Assembly (NCBI GenBank): GCA_023664365.1
Contig: JAMPFR010000028.1
Coordinates: forward strand, 1 to 39,539
Length of the DNA stretch: 39,539 bases
DNA from: Acetatifactor muris
Lineage (GTDB): Bacteria > Bacillota > Clostridia > Lachnospirales > Lachnospiraceae
Direction of reading: 5' to 3'
In this document: positions 18,322 to 27,599 of the stretch, piece after piece
Layout of the letters: every line of letters starts with the position of its first letter
How positions within the stretch are numbered: the stretch's first letter is position 1
The notes under the pieces: model-generated
Databases searched by the model: none
What the model was told of the DNA's origin: nothing
The model's input: only the letters and a program-made list of their open reading frames with translations
Translations under genes and position numbers: made by a program

Positions 18322-19776
18322 ATGAAGATAAGGACAAGGTATGCCCCCAGTCCCACGGGGAAAATGCATGTGGGAAATCTGCGGTCGGCTTTATATGAAT
18401 TTCTGATTGCAAAGCACGCAGGCGGAGATTTTATGCTTCGGATTGAGGATACGGATCAGGAGCGTTTTGTGGAAGGAGCCACGGAAATTATATACCGTAC
18501 CATGGAAAAGACAGGACTGGTACACGACGAGGGCCCGGATAAAGACGGCGGATACGGTCCCTATGTCCAGAGTGAGCGGATGAAGACCGGTATCTATATG
18601 AAGTATGCCAAAGAACTGATTGACAGGGGGGAGGCCTATTACTGCTTCTGTGACAGGGAGCGGCTGGCGTCCCTGAAGACGGAGGTTGTGGAGGGCAAGG
18701 AGATCACCGTTTATGACAAGCACTGCCTGCAGCTGTCCCGGGAGGAGGTTCAGGCGAATCTGGCGGCGGGAAAGCCCTTTGTGATCCGGCAGAATAATCC
18801 GACAGAGGGAAGCACCACCTTTCATGACGAGCTTTACGGTGACATTACGGTGGAGAATGCCGAACTGGACGATATGATACTGATTAAGTCTGACGGCTAT
18901 CCCACCTACAATTTTGCAAACGTGGTGGATGACCATACCATGAACATTACCCATGTGGTGCGGGGAAACGAGTATCTGTCTTCCTCCCCCAAATACCAGC
19001 GCCTGTATGATGCCTTTGGCTGGCAGAGTCCCGTGTATGTACATCTGCCCCTGATCACCGACGAGAACCACAAGAAGCTGTCAAAGCGAAGCGGACATGC
19101 TTCTTTCGAGGATTTAATGGAGCAGGGCTTTGTGGCAGAGGCAGTGGTAAACTATATTGCGCTGCTGGGCTGGTCCCCGGAGGAGAACCGTGAGATATTC
19201 AGCCTGGAGGAACTGATTCGTGAGTTTGACTATCACAGGATCAGCAAATCTCCTGCAGTATTTGACATTGTAAAGCTGCGCTGGATGAACGGCGAGTATA
19301 TTAAGGCCATGGATTTTGATGCCTTTTATGAGATGGCGGAGCCATATCTTAAGAAGGCGCTGACAAAGGATTTTGATTTAAAGAAAATTGCCAATATGGT
19401 GAAGACCCGTATCGAGGTTTTTCCGGATATTGCGGATCATGTGGATTTCTTTCAGGAACTGCCGGAGTATGATGTGGAAATGTACACCCATAAGAAGATG
19501 AAGACTGACAGGGATTCTTCCCTGCAGGTGCTTCGGGATGCGCTTCCGCTGCTGGAGGCGCAGGAGGATTACAGCAACGACGGCCTGTATCAGATGCTGT
19601 TAAAGTATGTGGAGGAGAGAAATGTAAAGAACGGCTATGTAATGTGGCCTCTCCGCACCGCCGTTTCCGGGAAACAGATGACTCCTGCCGGCGCCACCGA
19701 AATCATGGAGGTGCTGGGGAAAGAAGAGGTCTTAAAGAGAATCAGGAAAGGAATAGATAAGCTTGCCAATGCCTGA
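18322..19776 (+). CDS. gltX: Glutamyl-tRNA synthetase
   Basis: Charges tRNA-Glu (and, in most Clostridia, tRNA-Gln for later amidation) with glutamate. The 484-residue class I synthetase shows the HIGH-type motif in [19 protein letters not shown] and the KMSKS-type motif in [12 protein letters not shown], both intact. AGGAAGAGG at 18304-18312 gives normal ribosome-site spacing. Its last codons overlap the start of the helicase gene by 14 bp. Whether a second gltX exists elsewhere cannot be judged. Confidence 0.94.
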
Positions 19777-21727
19777 CAGCCTGAATGAAGCACAGCGCAG
19801 AGCTGTGACCTGGGCCGGGGGGCCGCTGCTGTTGCTGGCGGGCCCCGGATCCGGGAAGACATTTACCATTACAAAACGGATTCTGTACCTTCTGGAGCGG
19901 GGCGTTCCCCCGGAGGAAATCCTGGTCATCACTTTTACAAAGGACGCAGCGGCGGCCATGCAGAGCCGTTTCCGGCAGTTGTCCGGTCTTTTCTTTCCCG
20001 TTCATTTCGGAACCTTTCATTCTGTTTTCTATCACATTTTACTGGAGTCCGGCGGATTCCGCCATTTACAGCTGCTCAATGATTCCCGCAGAAAAAAACT
20101 GATGATTTCCATTTTGAGACAATATGGGACAACCCCGGAGCTTTCGGAGGAATCCGTTAAAATACTGTCCGCAGTCAGCCTGTACAAAAATACGGGGGAC
20201 AGAGAGCGGGCCCTGTCCGAAATGCCTGTGGGCTGGGGAGAGCGCTTCGGGGAAATCCTTACAGCCTATACAGAGGCGGTGCGGGAGGCAGGCGCGGTGG
20301 ACTTTGACGACATGCTGTTTGAATGCCGCAGGCTTCTGGAAGGAGACATAAAAGTGCGGCGCAGCTGGCAGAATCGGTTCCGGCATATTCTCATAGACGA
20401 ATTTCAGGACTGTAATCCCATGCAGTATGAGGTTATCAGGCTTCTGGCCCCGGAGCCTGCAAATGTGTTTGCCGTGGGGGACGACGATCAGTCCATTTAC
20501 GGGTTTCGGGGCGCCAGGCCGGATATTCTCCGGCGTTTTGAAAAAGATTTCGGGGCGGAGCGGATTCTGCTGGATGTAAATTACCGGTGTGCGGAAGAGA
20601 TTGTCAAAGCTTCGCTGGCGGTGATTGAGGAAAACAGGGACAGGTTTCCCAAGGCCCTCAGGGCGGCAGAGCCTGCAAAAGGGCCGGGAGAGGCCGGAAA
20701 GACCGAAAAAGTGCATATCATACCCTTTCAGGACAGGGAGGCGCAGAACGGCTGGATTCTGCAGCAGACAGCGGAATGGGAACGGAATCACAGGGATGAC
20801 GGTATGCGGTGTGCTGTTTTGTTCCGCACCAATTCCTGTATGCAGAGGATTGCGGCGGCCATGCACAATGCGGGAATTCCTTTCTTTATGAGAGAGAAGG
20901 GGCAGAATATTTATGAGCATTTTGCGGTAAAGGATATTATGGCCTATCTGCTGCTGGCTTCAGGAGACTGGCGCAGGGAGCATCTGCTCCGCATTATAAA
21001 CAGGCCCGTGAGATATATCAGCAGGGAGGCGGTGGGGGAGGGCCGGACAATTTCGGAGATGCAGGCATATTATCGGGAGCAGCTTGGCCGGGAAGGCGGA
21101 ATGGCCGGAGGCGTAAGAAATGCCGCCGGGATCGGCGGCGTTGGAGCAGGAAAGCCGGGAACAGCCGGATACAGGCGGGAGGTATTGGAGAAGCTGTCCT
21201 GCTTTCAAAAGCAGCTGGACAGCCTTCATAAGATGCCGCCGTCTCTGGGGGTTCGATATATTCTGAAAGCGGTCGGCTATGAGGAGTATCTTCGGACACT
21301 GGCGAAGGGAAATCAGGAAAAGCTCACCCGGTGGCGGGAGACTGTGGAGTGGCTGAAAACAGATGCCGGTCGTTTTGAGAATGTGCGTGACTGGACGGAG
21401 GCTCAGGAAGCCTATATTGAGGAGGCGGGAAAGAACGCCGTGCGATCGGACACCGGCGAGTCCCTATGTCTGATGACGGTACACGGGGCAAAGGGACTGG
21501 AATTTGACAGAGTGATTATTCCCCAATGCAATGAACGGATATTTCCCCGGGGGGAACTGCAGACACGGGAGCAGATTGAGGAAGAACGACGCATTTTCTA
21601 TGTGGCGATGACCAGAGCGAAAAAAAGCCTGGAGCTCCTGTACCTTATGGGTGACAGCGCGCGCTCCGGGCTCCCTTCAAGATTTTTGAATCCTCTTCTG
21701 GAAAAAGGAAGAATCACTCCTCAATAA
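19763..21727 (+). CDS. UvrD/PcrA-type superfamily 1 helicase
   Basis: ATP-driven 3'-5' DNA helicase of the UvrD/Rep/PcrA family, acting in repair or replication. The 654-residue product has Walker [57 protein letters not shown] and [11 protein letters not shown], all in order. It is shorter than PcrA (about 730). A Gly/Ala-rich, low-complexity insert occupies about residues 443-472. Two starts are possible: TTG at 19763, 10 bases after AAAGGA, or ATG at 19769. The 3' end overlaps the convergent DUF1292 gene by 14 bp. Confidence 0.9.
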
Positions 21728-22031
21728 GCTCATCAAATTCACAGTTGTCCAGATATTCGTCAAAGGCGTCGGCAACCGCTTCATATTCGTCGTCATCATC
21801 AATATAGTCCAAAACAGGTTCTTCGTTAGGGTCGTCGGGATTTTCACTGTAACGGTAAAACCAGACCTCCCCGTCTTCGTTTTCGCCCTCTTCATTCAAA
21901 GGGAGAAGGACAATATAATCTTTGGAATTTACCGTGATGATAGTGATAACGGCGCAGTTTACGTTGGTGCCGTCGTCCAGCTCCAGTTCTACAGTCATTT
22001 CTTCGTCTTCGTAGTCATTTTTCTTTCCCAT
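21714..22031 (-). CDS. DUF1292 family protein
   Basis: A 105-residue strongly acidic protein of the DUF1292 family, common in Firmicutes and of unknown function. It shows the typical opening (EEMTVELELDDGTNVNC), the central IVLLPLNE strand and an acidic tail (DDDDEYEAVADAFDEYL). The start at 22031 follows AGGAGG at 22036-22041; the frame opens further upstream. It is transcribed from its own promoter, away from the NlpC/P60 gene. Confidence 0.85.
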   Translation of the reverse strand: MGKKNDYEDEEMTVELELDDGTNVNCAVITIITVNSKDYIVLLPLNEEGENEDGEVWFYRYSENPDDPNEEPVLDYIDDDDEYEAVADAFDEYLDNCEFDELIEE

Positions 22032-22061
22032 GGGAAGCCTCCTGTATTTGAGTTTTGTAAC

Positions 22062-22090
22062 AGTATACCCCCTTTGAGGCAAATTTGCAA
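22062..22090 (-). promoter_or_regulatory. Sigma-A promoter for the DUF1292 gene
   Basis: On the minus strand TTGCAA (22090-22085), 17 bp, TATACT (22067-22062). The -10 matches five of six and the -35 four of six. It lies 31 bp before the start codon, and its -35 box is 11 bp from that of the divergent promoter. Confidence 0.65.
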
Positions 22091-22101
22091 TGTTTGCTTT
22101 G

Positions 22102-22130
22102 TTGACAGTAACCGTATCTGTACCTATAAT
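22102..22130 (+). promoter_or_regulatory. Perfect consensus sigma-A promoter for the NlpC/P60 gene
   Basis: TTGACA (22102-22107), exactly 17 bp, TATAAT (22125-22130). All twelve consensus bases match. It lies 50 bp before the start codon and implies strong vegetative expression of the wall hydrolase. Confidence 0.9.
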
Positions 22131-22179
22131 ATAAAATGGAAAAGGAGCAGATTTCAATTATCTGCTGTCGGAGAACAGG

Positions 22180-23601
22180 ATGAAGTACAGGCTGATAAGT
22201 GTGGCCGTCCTTGGACTGCTGGCGGGAAACCTCTATGCGGAGGCTGCTGCCGTGCAGGAGGATGTGAAAGAGGCCGCCGTAGGAAAAACAACAGAGACGA
22301 TTGAAATAACCGAAGCCATGGAACAGCAGGCAGAGGTTTCCGTAGAGACAGAGGCTTCCGCAGAGGCCGGAAAACCGGTTCTGGCCGGGGGCATCGGGGC
22401 TGATTTGACGCCGCCCCGATTTACGGACAGCGAGTCGGCGATCCGGAATTCGGAGACTGCTGCGCCTGCGGATAGTGCTGCGCCTGCGGATAGTGCCGCG
22501 CCTGCGGATAGTGCCGCTGCGCCTGCAGACAGCAGCTTTGCAGCGGAGATCGAAAACTTGGAGGCGGCTGCCGCCGGAGTCACCGACGACAGTCCGGCGT
22601 CGGAAAAGGCCGACATGGGAACGGAAGAACCTGCAGCGGAAACAGAGCCGGAAAACGAGTATGCGGATTTGGCCATTGCCGATGTGCGAAACTACGTTAA
22701 TGTCCGTACCGGGCCGGATACCGGCAGTTCCATTGTGGGCAAGATATATGACGGCGCAGTGGCCCAGATACTGGAGACGGTTGACGGGGAGAACGGGGAG
22801 TGGTTCCGGGTGGTCTCCGGCAATGTGGAGGGTTATATTAAGTCGGAGTTCTTTCTGTACGGCGACGCAGCGGCGGAAGTGATAGACGATTATGTGACAA
22901 GATATGCGGTAGTGCTGGCCAGCAGGCTGAATGTCAGGGAACAGCCCGATGTGGAGACAAGGCGGATCGGCTATGTGGACAAGGGAGAAAAGGTTCAGAT
23001 TCTGGAGAATCTGGGAGACTGGCTGAAGGTGCAGTATACCCGGAACAAAACGGGGTATGTGGCGGCAGAGTATGTGACGGTGACGGAGGAATTTGTCTAC
23101 GCAAAGACGCTGGAGGAGGAAGCGGCGGAGCTTGCGGCGAAAAGGGCCCTGGAACAAAGGCAGAATGTTTCTGAGACACAGGCGGCGGAAAGCACCGAAA
23201 TCACGGTAACGCCTCCCACGGGAGAGTATTCCGACAGTGCGGAGCTGCGCAGTGAGATTGTGGCGTATGCCATGCAGTTTCTGGGCAATCGGTATGTGCA
23301 CGGCGGACAGTCGCTGGAGACGGGCACGGACTGCTCCGGTTTTACCAGTCTGATTTATGCGGTGTTTGGCTATTCGGTGAGCAGAACGCCTGCCGGACAG
23401 CTTTCCGGCGCAGGCAGGAACGTTCCCTACAGCGAGGCTAAGCCGGGAGATATTATATGCTACGGCTCCGGCAGATGTACCCATGTAGCCCTGTATATCG
23501 GCGACGGACAGATTATTCATGCGGCAAATTCCCGCAAGGGGGTAGTGACCCAGCAGGCCGACTATGACAATATACTGGGTGTGAAAAATTTAATCGACTG
23601 A
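22180..23601 (+). CDS. Secreted SH3b-NlpC/P60 cell-wall endopeptidase
   Basis: Predicted gamma-D-Glu-diamino-acid peptidase that cuts peptidoglycan stem peptides. The 473-residue product has a short signal peptide (ends near GNLYAEA), an Ala/Glu-rich linker containing an AAPADS repeat, two bacterial SH3 domains (about residues 165-228 with YVNVRTGPDTGSSIVG, and 240-302 with LNVREQPDVETRRIG), a Glu/Ala-rich helical stretch, and a C-terminal NlpC/P60 domain. The catalytic Cys lies in TDCSGF (about residue 386) and the His in THVALYIGDG. GGAGAA precedes the start. Its stop overlaps the convergent CapA-type gene by 12 bp, leaving no terminator space. Confidence 0.92.
   Translation: MKYRLISVAVLGLLAGNLYAEAAAVQEDVKEAAVGKTTETIEITEAMEQQAEVSVETEASAEAGKPVLAGGIGADLTPPRFTDSESAIRNSETAAPADSAAPADSAAPADSAAAPADSSFAAEIENLEAAAAGVTDDSPASEKADMGTEEPAAETEPENEYADLAIADVRNYVNVRTGPDTGSSIVGKIYDGAVAQILETVDGENGEWFRVVSGNVEGYIKSEFFLYGDAAAEVIDDYVTRYAVVLASRLNVREQPDVETRRIGYVDKGEKVQILENLGDWLKVQYTRNKTGYVAAEYVTVTEEFVYAKTLEEEAAELAAKRALEQRQNVSETQAAESTEITVTPPTGEYSDSAELRSEIVAYAMQFLGNRYVHGGQSLETGTDCSGFTSLIYAVFGYSVSRTPAGQLSGAGRNVPYSEAKPGDIICYGSGRCTHVALYIGDGQIIHAANSRKGVVTQQADYDNILGVKNLID
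22459..22533 (+). repeat. In-frame tandem repeat in the NlpC/P60 linker
   Basis: Three 18-bp units (22459-22476, 22477-22494, 22495-22512) and a 21-bp variant (22513-22533) encode repeats of Ala-Ala-Pro-Ala-Asp-Ser. Units 1 and 2 are identical; unit 3 has one change. The repeat sits in the linker between signal peptide and first SH3 domain and could vary in copy number between strains without breaking the frame. Confidence 0.9.
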
Positions 23602-24990
23602 CAGATCCGACTTTTTCAGCGTCCAGTCTCCTATGATTTCATCGCTCCAGGCCTGCAGGTCAGAGCGTTTTAAGGCCACGCCGCCGTAACTGCGGATGCC
23701 GTGGCGGGCGGCCTGTTCCTCGGTGTAATCCTCCAGGAAATATATGTTTTCCAGGCGCACGGGGCCGCTGGTGTAATGACAGACCAGGGGAAGGGCGCCG
23801 GTTTGTTCCTCTGCAATGGCAACGCCGTCCTCCGATACATGAAAGGTGACCCAGGCCATTTCCTCCAGCATACACAGGGCCTGCTTCTGGGTGGACACAT
23901 AATTGCCCAGGGAATAGTAGCACAGGGCGGTGTTGCCGTTATCGGCAGTGATTTTTTCCACAGGCTGGGGGACATGGGGATGGGTGCCTATAATCAGATC
24001 CGCACCTGCCTCTGTCATTTCCAGGGCAAATTTCCGTTGGTAGGTTGAGGGGTTTTTCTGGTATTCAGTGCCCCAGTGCGGAAACACGATGACAATGTCC
24101 GCAAGCTGCTTTGCCAGTTCGATATCCTCCAGCACACGGGGATTTAAACTGGTGAAATCAATGCGGCCGTTTTTTTCATTATAGGCGCAGAGCATATTCA
24201 GATGTCCCCTGAGGGGGAAAGCCAGAGTTTCGGCGTTGGGACCGTAGGTATAGTTTAAGATGGCAAAGGTGACGCCGCCCGTCTCAAGAAGGGGGATTGA
24301 TCCGGCAGCATCGGCGGCTGTATCCGTACCTGCGATACCGGTCATTAAAATCTCAGGGTGGGCTTCCTTCCAGTAGGCGGCACAGTTCAGGATACCCTCC
24401 AGTCCCTGGTCGGCGGCGTGGTTTGTGGCGTGGAGCACCACGTCAAAACCGGCCTCTGCAATGGCGTCGCCTACCTCCGTAGGAGAATTAAAGAGGGGAA
24501 AGCCGGAAAACCCAAGCTCATTTCCGCCCAGAATAGTTTCCTGATTGATGATACTGATATCCGCGGCTTCCAGACAGCTGCGGATATTTTCAAAGAGAAA
24601 GGCATAGTCCCGGGTGCCGTCGCTCATCTGTCCGGTTCTGACAATTCCCATGTGCATCAGATTGTCGCCTACGGCTAAGAGAGTGATGTCATATTCTTCA
24701 AAAGCAGGCTCCGGCGTGGAAGAGGGGACAGGTTCAGGTGTGGGAGCAGGAGCGGGAGCTGACTCCGGCACGGAATCCGGCGCCGCGGTATCCGGCAGCT
24801 CCGGAGACAGGGATTCCGATGCCGGGGAACCTGCGGAAGCCGATGCATCCCCGGCCGGCCTGCTCTCAAAAAGCTTTCCGGCTGCAGTAAGCATACGGTT
24901 TCCGGCCGGGTGAAAGGATATGCCGATCAGGCCGGCCAGCACCAGAACCGGAATTATAATGGCAATCAGATATTTTTTCTTACTTTTCAT
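23590..24990 (-). CDS. CapA-family exported metallophosphoesterase-like protein
   Basis: A 466-residue protein of the CapA/PgsA family, originally linked to poly-gamma-glutamate capsule export but common in genomes without capsules. It opens with a membrane anchor (KKKYLIAIIIPVLVLAGLIG), then a Pro/Ala/Ser-rich linker to about residue 110. The calcineurin-like domain has LLAVGDNLMHMG, INQETILGG, LHATNHAADQG, VFPHWGTEY and IIGTHPHVPQPVE, with the metal-binding positions intact. The start at 24990 has GGGAGG upstream. No pgsB or pgsC is in the window, so a role other than capsule synthesis is more likely. Its neighbour on the opposite strand is a wall hydrolase. Confidence 0.85.
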   Translation of the reverse strand: MKSKKKYLIAIIIPVLVLAGLIGISFHPAGNRMLTAAGKLFESRPAGDASASAGSPASESLSPELPDTAAPDSVPESAPAPAPTPEPVPSSTPEPAFEEYDITLLAVGDNLMHMGIVRTGQMSDGTRDYAFLFENIRSCLEAADISIINQETILGGNELGFSGFPLFNSPTEVGDAIAEAGFDVVLHATNHAADQGLEGILNCAAYWKEAHPEILMTGIAGTDTAADAAGSIPLLETGGVTFAILNYTYGPNAETLAFPLRGHLNMLCAYNEKNGRIDFTSLNPRVLEDIELAKQLADIVIVFPHWGTEYQKNPSTYQRKFALEMTEAGADLIIGTHPHVPQPVEKITADNGNTALCYYSLGNYVSTQKQALCMLEEMAWVTFHVSEDGVAIAEEQTGALPLVCHYTSGPVRLENIYFLEDYTEEQAARHGIRSYGGVALKRSDLQAWSDEIIGDWTLKKSDLSVD

Positions 24991-25022
24991 GGCCGCCTCC
25001 CAACCTACCACATTATGGCTGA

Positions 25023-25051
25023 ATAGTACGCTTATTTTGCCTGTTTGTCAA
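25023..25051 (-). promoter_or_regulatory. Sigma-A promoter for the CapA-family gene
   Basis: On the minus strand a perfect TTGACA (25051-25046), 17 bp, TACTAT (25028-25023), four of six. It lies 33 bp before the start codon. Its -35 is 7 bp from that of the divergent GH13 promoter. Confidence 0.7.
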
Positions 25052-25058
25052 TCGGCGC

Positions 25059-25087
25059 TTGTGATTTTAAGGCATATCCAGTATAAT
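25059..25087 (+). promoter_or_regulatory. Sigma-A promoter for the GH13-like gene
   Basis: TTGTGA (25059-25064), 17 bp, a perfect TATAAT (25082-25087). It lies 38 bp before the start codon at 25125. Confidence 0.7.
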
Positions 25088-25124: not shown

Positions 25125-27023
25125 ATGACTAATACGAGCGGCAACAGAAATCCTTACCCACTGGGAGCAAGACCGGAGGCAGACGGAATCCGTTTTTCCT
25201 TTGTGTCCGAAGAGGCTGACTGCGGCATTCTGCTTTACAGTTCCCGCACGGGCAGGGAACTGCGGAAAATTCCCTTCTCTGAGGAAGAACGCATGGGAAA
25301 AATCTATTGCAAAACGGTGGAGGGAATCCGCCCGGAAGAGGTGACCTATCAGTTTTACAGGGGCCGTGAGCTTGTACCGGACGAGCACGGGCGTGTCTTT
25401 CCGGGGAAATATGTATTCGGGAAAAGGGCGGGAAACAGCGGGAGAAAGGCGGGCTTTCTGCCGGCGGTCTATGACTGGGAGCAGGATCGCTGCCCGGAGC
25501 TTCCGTACAGCGAAGCAGTCTTTTATTGTTTACATGTGAGAGGCTTTACAAGACATATCTCTTCGGAGGTGAAAAACAGAGGAACCTTTGCGGGGATTCA
25601 GGAAAAGATTCCTTATCTGCAGGAAATAGGAGTCACCACGCTGGAGCTGCAGCCTGCCTATGAATTTGCGGAGCTGGAGGAGTGGGATGAAAATCTGCCC
25701 CCTTACTGTGTCCCGGGGCCTGCAGAGCGGCGTGACAAAGCAGGAGCGGTAAACTACTGGGGATATAAAAAGGGATATTACTATGCGCCCAAGGCCGCCT
25801 ATGCCGCCTCCGGCAATGCGCCGGAAGAATTCAGAGGTCTTGTTAAGGCGTTACACAAAAGCCGTATGGAGCTGGTGATGCAGTTCTATTTTCCGGAAGA
25901 TGCCGCTCGGAACGAAATTGCGGAAATCCTGCGGTTCTGGACGCTGGAGTACCATGTGGACGGTTTTCATCTCATGGGAGCAAATCTTCCCGTGGATATG
26001 CTTGCCGCAGACCCTTTGCTGGCGGATAAGAAAATCATGTATTACGGATTTGACCGGGAAACGGTTTATGATAAAATGGCGGGACAAAGGTTTCCTCATT
26101 TGGCGGAGTATAACGACGGTTATCTTTATGATATGCGCAGGCTGCTGAAGGGGGATGAAGATATGCTGAGTATCGCCCTGCGTCACATGCGCTATATCCC
26201 GGAGAAGGCGGGGCGTGTTCATTATCTTACAAATTATTACGGCTTTACCTTGTCTGATCTTGTGTCCTACGATTATAAACACAATGAGGCCAACGGGGAG
26301 GACAACAGAGACGGAAACGACCACAACTGCAGCTGGAACTGCGGCGAGGAGGGAGGCACAAGAAGCCGCCGGGTCAGACAGCTTCGTATCCGGCAGATGA
26401 AGAATGCAATTTGTATGCTGCTGCTGACCCAGTCCACACCTCTGATATTTATGGGAGACGAATTCGGAAATACCCAGAAGGGGAACAATAATCCCTGGTG
26501 TCAGGACAATGGAGTCTGCTGGCTTGACTGGGGAAAGCCAAACGGCGAGATACTGGAATTCTGGAAGCAGGCGGCGGCTTTTCGGAAGAAGCATCCGATT
26601 CTCCATCCGGAAAGCCCTCTTCGTCTGATGGATTATCTTTCCTGCGGCTATCCTGATTTATCCTATCACGGAGAGAGCGCATGGCGGCCGCATATGGAGA
26701 GTCACTGCAGGCATATGGGTATCATGCTCTGCGGAGAGTATGCGGAGCAGGATGACGGCGGGGCGGATGACTTTATCTATATTGCCATGAATATGCACTG
26801 GGAAAGCCATCGACTGGCGCTTCCGAAGCTGCCGAAGGGTATGTGCTGGCGCATGGCGTTTGCAACGGCGGAGGCGGAGGATATGACGGAGTCCGGGGAA
26901 GAAGAAAATCCCGACAGCGGTGTGACAGTGGCGCCCAGAAGTATTGCGGTGCTTACCGGCGTACAGACGGGGCGGAAAACGGGACCCGGCAGCGGGAAAA
27001 AGAGCAGAAAACAGAAGGGCTGA
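25125..27023 (+). CDS. Catalytically dead GH13 debranching-enzyme-like protein
   Basis: A 632-residue relative of GlgX/isoamylase-type glycogen debranching enzymes, with a CBM48-like N-terminal region (about 1-105) and a GH13 barrel. The scaffold is kept: HVRGFT, NYWGYKKGYYYAPKAAY, FTLSDLVSYDYKHNEANGE with NRDG after it, and FMGDEFGNTQ. All four catalytic regions are lost. Region I (usually DVVYNH) reads QFYFPE near residue 253; the nucleophile Asp of GFRFD is Met284; the acid Glu of AEPW is Tyr306; the His-Asp of CHDGFT is Tyr371-Tyr372. Hydrolysis is not expected; glycan binding, regulation or scaffolding are possible. The start follows GGAGG at 25113-25117. The C-terminus is basic. It is followed 9 bp later by a DUF5662 gene. 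Confidence 0.85.
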   Translation: MTNTSGNRNPYPLGARPEADGIRFSFVSEEADCGILLYSSRTGRELRKIPFSEEERMGKIYCKTVEGIRPEEVTYQFYRGRELVPDEHGRVFPGKYVFGKRAGNSGRKAGFLPAVYDWEQDRCPELPYSEAVFYCLHVRGFTRHISSEVKNRGTFAGIQEKIPYLQEIGVTTLELQPAYEFAELEEWDENLPPYCVPGPAERRDKAGAVNYWGYKKGYYYAPKAAYAASGNAPEEFRGLVKALHKSRMELVMQFYFPEDAARNEIAEILRFWTLEYHVDGFHLMGANLPVDMLAADPLLADKKIMYYGFDRETVYDKMAGQRFPHLAEYNDGYLYDMRRLLKGDEDMLSIALRHMRYIPEKAGRVHYLTNYYGFTLSDLVSYDYKHNEANGEDNRDGNDHNCSWNCGEEGGTRSRRVRQLRIRQMKNAICMLLLTQSTPLIFMGDEFGNTQKGNNNPWCQDNGVCWLDWGKPNGEILEFWKQAAAFRKKHPILHPESPLRLMDYLSCGYPDLSYHGESAWRPHMESHCRHMGIMLCGEYAEQDDGGADDFIYIAMNMHWESHRLALPKLPKGMCWRMAFATAEAEDMTESGEEENPDSGVTVAPRSIAVLTGVQTGRKTGPGSGKKSRKQKG

Positions 27024-27032
27024 AGGCAGCAA

Positions 27033-27599
27033 ATGGGAAAGATCTGGAGTCATTTTAAGACAATTACATATCACAAGCTTCTGGTGGCAAAGGGATGCTT
27101 TCAGGTAGGGCTGTATCGTCAGGGCATCCTGCATGATTTGTCAAAGTACAGTCCCACAGAGTTCATAGTAGGCGCCAGATATTATCAGGGAACGCGGAGC
27201 CCCAATAACGCAGAGCGGGAGGAAAAGGGATATTCTGCAGCGTGGATGCACCACAAGGGAAGAAACAGGCATCACTTTGAATACTGGACGGATTATTCCA
27301 GCGACCCGGAAAAGCGGGGATGCGTGGTGCCGATCCCCATGCCTGACAAATATATTGCAGAGATGGTTATGGATCGCATTGCAGCCAGCAAAGTGTACAA
27401 GGGGAAGGAATATACGGATGCGTCGCCGCTTGAGTACTATCTGCAGGGAAAAGCAGGAAAGCTGCTTCATCCGGAAACGGCGAAAAAGCTGGAAAAAATG
27501 CTGCGCCTTCTGGCAAGGGAGGGGGAAGAAAAGACCTTCGCCCGTATCAGGCGTGAGTTGAAGGTGGACCGGCACAGGAGAAGGAATCGAAGCATATGA
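27033..27599 (+). CDS. DUF5662 family protein
   Basis: A 188-residue protein of unknown function, mostly helical and His-rich. It carries an HD-like element (ILHDLSKYSPTEF near residues 33-45), then WMHHKGRNRHHFEYW and PDKYIAEMVMDR, conserved-looking features that suggest a metal site like HD-domain proteins, as I recall for DUF5662. The C-terminus is strongly basic (RHRRRNRSI). It starts 9 bp after the GH13-like gene with only a weak AAGG site, so it probably relies on translation of the gene before. Catalysis unproven. Confidence 0.8.
   Translation: MGKIWSHFKTITYHKLLVAKGCFQVGLYRQGILHDLSKYSPTEFIVGARYYQGTRSPNNAEREEKGYSAAWMHHKGRNRHHFEYWTDYSSDPEKRGCVVPIPMPDKYIAEMVMDRIAASKVYKGKEYTDASPLEYYLQGKAGKLLHPETAKKLEKMLRLLAREGEEKTFARIRRELKVDRHRRRNRSI

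Follow-up and report, generated by a model that had tools for sequence, protein, structure and literature searches.

We analysed a window of 39,539 nucleotides, the whole stretch of Acetatifactor muris DNA given by contig JAMPFR010000028.1 (assembly GCA_023664365.1, forward strand), in which a forward-strand gene encodes a relative of GlgX and the isoamylases, here called the pseudo-isoamylase (Table 1). The gene is a real open frame whose ATG at 25125 is preceded by a GGAGG stretch, and its 632 codons translate as described in the original prediction, a model's reading of the letters alone. The protein has a GlgX/isoamylase-type (GH13_11) fold stripped of its catalytic machinery.

Table 1. 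Features of the pseudo-isoamylase gene and its surroundings (window coordinates)
Feature	Position	Strand	Remarks
Pseudo-isoamylase (GH13_11-derived), 632 aa	25125..27023	+	N- and C-terminal beta domains flanking the barrel scaffold (sequence and model)
NYWGY segment	25752..25766	+	Trp212 and Tyr214 correspond to acarbose-contacting Trp222/Tyr224 of Streptomyces venezuelae GlgX
Region I remnant VMQFYFPED	25875..25901	+	Asp replaced by Gln253, Asn-His gone; GlgX stretch of ~44 residues after it absent
Region II remnant DGFHLMGA	25959..25982	+	Nucleophile position is Met284
Region III remnant KIMYYGFD	26031..26054	+	Acid/base position is Tyr307; Trp replaced by Phe309
Region IV remnant LTNYYGFTLS	26226..26255	+	His-Asp replaced by Tyr371-Tyr372
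KHNEANGEDNRDG loop	26277..26315	+	Strongly conserved in the family; Glu392 corresponds to acarbose-contacting Glu470
QKGNNNPWCQDN segment	26475..26510	+	Asn456 and Trp458 correspond to acarbose-contacting Asn534/Tyr536
DUF5662 gene	27033..27599	+	Predicted helical; conserved neighbour; DUF5662 E 2e-39; starts 9 bases after the pseudo-isoamylase stop
Small Cys/Gly-rich frame, 107 aa	27627..27950	+	
Promoter-like TTGTGA-17-TATAAT match 5' of the pseudo-isoamylase	25059..25087	+	Site count not clearly above chance

A GlgX-type fold without catalytic residues

The nearest NCBIfam family was GlgX (TIGR02100, E = 1.9e-84), and the closest solved relatives were GlgX (PDB 7u39, E = 6.7e-65) and plant ISA1, which bears out the barrel scaffold of GlgX/isoamylase type that had been recognised from the letters. 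An AlphaFold model with a predicted local distance difference test score (pLDDT) of 89.6 superposed on rice ISA1 at 2.6 Å over 569 residues. By overall sequence and fold the protein belongs to GH13_11. Its TIGR02100 score of 284.1 bits was less than half the cut-off of 640.9 bits and thus below the curated family threshold, and it differs from GlgX, TreX and ISA1 in lacking the nucleophile, the region I His and the acid/base, with stretches of the active site missing.

We aligned the catalytic regions with those of 15 true GlgX proteins from other genomes. DVVFNH of GlgX corresponded to QFYFP in region I, and KLIAEAWD paired with KIMYYGFD in region III, which places the acid/base position at Tyr307; the original prediction had put it at Tyr306, while its Met284, its Tyr-Tyr in region IV and its missing DVVYNH all stood. 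The full GH13_11 catalytic set is therefore absent, with Met284, Tyr307, Tyr372 and Gln253 at the key positions and the Asn-His gone. Two deletions had been overlooked: ~44 residues are missing from the stretch that joins regions I and II, and 14 from the one that joins regions II and III. Judged from these residues, the protein almost certainly does not carry out GH13 hydrolysis.

Conservation and distribution in Lachnospiraceae

Orthologues were present in 55 of 60 other genomes of the same genus, one of them (G020) as a fragment, and the five genomes without one were 59–84% complete. Frames were uninterrupted in all 55 aligned orthologues (the window protein and 54 others), three of which end at contig edges; A1 used 45 of the 55. 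The region I Asp position was Gln, the nucleophile a non-acid and the region IV His position Tyr throughout. Two further positions varied: the acid/base was Tyr in 44, Asp in 4, Glu in 3 and another residue in 4, and the stabiliser was Tyr in 26, Asp in 9 and another residue in 20. Ratios of nonsynonymous (dN) to synonymous (dS) substitution, calculated by NG86 for the closest pairs, of which many had dS above 1 and one was saturated, ranged from 0.05 to 0.19 (window protein against nearest orthologue: dN 0.120, dS 0.793, ratio 0.152). These values indicate strong purifying selection at the sequence level, and we regard a selected function as practically certain.

The family was found in ~313 of 397 sampled Lachnospiraceae genomes, as judged by match strength and span, while GlgX-type matches alone occurred in 10 genomes and neither type in 74. 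The distribution was drawn from a scan of named genomes, a scan of the 397 genomes and follow-ups with a broader profile; the A2 profile was built from the window protein and 58 of 61 members of the named-genome scan. The ~313 comprise 264 strong matches, 13 weak ones that were confirmed and 36 of 46 genomes in the follow-up (nine partial or split); the initial 323 matches were divided into 264 and 59 by eye, unlisted genomes were inferred from numbering gaps, and motifs were verified for 20 genomes and eight loci (one a duplicate) rather than for every strong match. A class-wide sample of 291 genomes, searched for matches up to E = 1e-90 with few candidates scored per genome, gave eight full-length matches among those listed, all in Lachnospiraceae; the other six genomes with matches in this range showed a split GlgX pattern, and the four sequences fetched from them were true GlgX.

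The loss extended through the 146 distinct members that we aligned, which include several contig-cut fragments and from which the exact duplicates L083, L085 and L087 had been removed. None had the full catalytic set and none kept the region I His; of the 145 members readable at the nucleophile position, L175 alone had an acid there, and it lacked the region I motif, the acid/base and the stabiliser Asp. Single residues survived elsewhere (acid/base Glu in 20 members, stabiliser Asp in 24), and L102 from Anaerocolumna retained the region III Glu together with the region IV His-Asp, without the nucleophile. Both deletions were shared: spacing from region I to II was 26 residues in 139/146 members and 25–27 in 144/146, against 70–72 in 43/43 true GlgX, and spacing from region II to III was 24–26 in 145 of the 146, against 38–39. 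In a short-form subgroup of ~565–615 residues (L175–L177, L205–L207, L209–L212) the segment around the acid/base was also gone. Near regions I–IV, no examined position was acidic in more than 54% of members except the ancestral Asp279 of DGF, and we rejected a shift of the catalytic acids to nearby sites. The original prediction of a selected pseudoenzyme instead of a decaying copy had pointed to orthologues and displaced acids as places where it could fail and to dN/dS as a check, and it held in each of them, with the catalytic set kept in 0/55 genus and 0/146 family members.

With the catalytic columns removed, a quick tree of 48 members and 42 of the 43 true GlgX, containing no plant sequences and read without regard to root position, had one branch parting the two groups with a Shimodaira–Hasegawa approximate likelihood-ratio test (SH-aLRT) value of 100. 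The simplest reading of the sequences is that a GH13_11 relative lost catalysis once, early in Lachnospiraceae, through its Asp nucleophile together with the two active-site deletions, and that it would then have been retained as a non-catalytic protein whose dead centre has drifted since. We found no description of this bacterial family in the open-access literature searched; the dead isoamylase is a kind already known from plants, and the bacterial family, with deletions of its own and a wide distribution, appears to be new.

Probable glucan binding and alternative roles

To place sugar contacts, we took the list of acarbose-contacting residues of S. venezuelae GlgX given in part of PMC9530166 and transferred them by offset on the GlgX sequence and then by motif. 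Five contacts outside regions I–IV, in NYWGY, NGE and GNNxY, were retained in 90–100% of members (for NYWGY, Trp in 146/146 and Tyr in 135/146, with Phe in the other 11), and those inside the regions were mostly lost. The cyclic di-GMP site of S. venezuelae GlgX is stated in the same portion of that source not to be conserved in Escherichia coli GlgX or TreX. As a separate observation, the Glu470 position was Glu in 142/146 pseudo-isoamylases and Trp, not Glu, in 21/43 true GlgX (L068–L082 and others).

Glucan binding is the best-supported role because of these retained contacts and the analogy with plant ISA2. We consider that the pseudo-isoamylase probably binds alpha-glucan, and with modest confidence we read it as a bacterial counterpart of ISA2 that binds alpha-glucan and has no catalytic role; that it serves a glycogen enzyme as scaffold or regulator is a more tentative suggestion. 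Like the pseudo-isoamylase as judged from its sequence, ISA2 (PDB 9j6x_C, 9xvi_C) is a non-catalytic GH13_11 paralogue with a changed nucleophile, and ISA2 was matched both by the A2 profile (E = 2.7e-66 and 3.5e-66) and by fold. Passages of PMC12510319 describe it as kept over long evolution with the nucleophile and most catalytic residues changed, and, together with passages of PMC12892837, as a noncatalytic protein that sits on ISA1, makes ISA1 more active and has a surface site where it binds glucan. The likeness has limits: ISA2 carries an extra N-terminal beta-sandwich, whereas the model here has one N-terminal beta domain (a single run of strands at residues 14–84, before a barrel strand at 133), and the pseudo-isoamylase differs further in its own deletions of ~44 and 14 residues and in having no detected ISA1 or GlgX partner in the window's genome. 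The plant proteins BAM4 and BAM9, eukaryotic unlike the bacterial pseudo-isoamylase, are beta-amylases, of a family other than GH13. Both are, as the pseudo-isoamylase is predicted to be, amylase relatives without activity, and they function in glucan turnover; BAM4 binds amylose and amylopectin (PMC12892837, in part).

Under the glucan-binding reading, what is left of the former substrate channel's wall, with its five contact positions, would bind alpha-glucan without cutting it, the ligand presumably being chains of glycogen or maltodextrin that the cell itself has made. The glucan-bound protein may then support other glycogen enzymes as their scaffold, protector or sensor, much as ISA2 does for ISA1. 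Several observations weigh against it. At least 90% conservation was also kept in 53 of 152 GlgX-conserved columns, so the contacts may serve folding, and the contact Arg212 was not kept (an Arg lies 8–12 residues before the Trp in 28/146 members and in 30/43 true GlgX), which slightly reduced our confidence. The gene was not found in 84 of the 397 genomes (about a fifth), at least 15 of which had a GlgC match; no recurrent neighbour that could be named was a glycogen gene; and co-occurrence with glycogen synthesis was uninformative because GlgC was present in 79/79 genomes. The central channel of plant ISA2 is moreover predicted to be closed, with glucan seen only at the surface site, according to part of PMC12510319.

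The window's genome, which is 98% complete, contained two proteins of GlgB type and two of type I pullulanase type, and no GlgX/ISA1-type gene was detected in it. The earlier suggestion that the protein regulates a true debranching enzyme, in the sense of a GlgX regulator, therefore does not fit this genome, and it looks unlikely as a general role because ~45 of 55 same-genus carriers, some of them incomplete genomes, showed no GlgX (~10 had one). A bacterial family with many genomes lacking a detected GlgX would separate a glucan-binding role from a partner role, and its occurrence in culturable anaerobes, with Konateibacter massiliensis and a Butyrivibrio strain among the cultured carriers, makes that separation testable. 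The excerpted text of PMC12510319 discusses non-catalytic isoamylases for green plants and algae and calls the reason for their retention one that ‘is not understood’. Annotations of ‘GlgX’ in Lachnospiraceae may refer to the dead protein, and surveys of gut glycogen could overcount debranching capacity; a possible case is Blautia obeum, to which a review assigns two glgX homologues (PMC10395257, in part), one of which may be the pseudo-isoamylase.

Among alternatives, the pseudo-isoamylase could be a sensory or regulatory subunit of DUF5662, a possible HD-domain phosphohydrolase, with glucan binding setting its activity and glycogen status passed on as a nucleotide signal. DUF5662 adjoins on the same strand downstream in 43 of 76 loci (17/26 in the genus set, 26/50 elsewhere). 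Its predicted model was closest, with weak likeness, to HD-domain phosphohydrolases; the ten best structural matches were HD-type or HDOD, including HD-GYP and a PgpH HD domain by title, and His34-Asp35, His73-His74, His80-His81 and Asp114 were invariant in 31 sequences. Others among the ten (MmoQ, 3m1t, SP1746, YqeK and a small alarmone hydrolase) we take to be HD-type or HDOD. A profile search of the PDB with DUF5662 returned nothing up to E = 10, and no paper mentioning DUF5662 was found in the open-access literature searched. DUF5662 did not co-occur with the pseudo-isoamylase (carriers 29/34, non-carriers 36/45), which makes it a conserved neighbour and not an obligate partner. We think the subunit role unlikely, and its bolder form, a glycogen sensor in most Lachnospiraceae in which a dead isoamylase reads glucan and sets the activity of a co-encoded HD-type DUF5662 so that a nucleotide second messenger follows the glycogen stores of this major gut family, quite improbable.

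That the old barrel houses a new chemistry would be in keeping with the strong conservation among Lachnospiraceae members, in which 86 columns were conserved at 90% or more; however, 61 of these were equally conserved in true GlgX, the five family-specific ones form no evident catalytic set, and the replacements of catalytic residues differ between lineages, and we hold this a little less likely still than the subunit role. That an aberrant triad leaves weak GH13 activity has a precedent in BmaN1 of Bacillus megaterium, which works although two of its triad positions are Lys and His, and single catalytic positions survive in some members, as noted above. BmaN1-type amylases nevertheless retain the acid/base Glu and a strictly conserved neighbouring Asp (PMC5347038, in part, for both points), whereas here no conserved acid lies close to a lost one and the loops joining region I to II and II to III have been cut short, which leaves residual activity very improbable. 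Decay, suggested by the alteration of all four catalytic regions and by about a fifth of the sample in which the gene was not found, was rejected on the low dN/dS, the uninterrupted frames and the shared deletions, and has scarcely any probability left.

Neighbouring genes and upstream region

The two downstream genes named in the original prediction, a DUF5662 gene and then a Cys/Gly-rich frame, were both recovered (Table 1). In 11/76 loci, the second gene after the pseudo-isoamylase was a frame from a cluster of similarly Cys/Gly-rich ones, whose representative was not the window's own frame. The surrounding order, gltX, a UvrD-type helicase, DUF1292 on the opposite strand, the pseudo-isoamylase and DUF5662, formed a recurrent Lachnospiraceae block (window positions 18322–22157 and 25125–27599), and uvrD, DUF1292 and DUF5662 remained together in two genomes without the pseudo-isoamylase.

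Upstream, we counted six promoter-like sites in the 3.2 kb scanned, compared with 3.3 ± 1.8 in shuffled sequences; the frame's description as promoter-driven was not established because this count is not clearly above the shuffled expectation. A minus-strand gene of PGA_cap type (window 23590–25087 region) stands back to back with the pseudo-isoamylase, and the promoter-like matches between them, at 25023–25087, point both ways.
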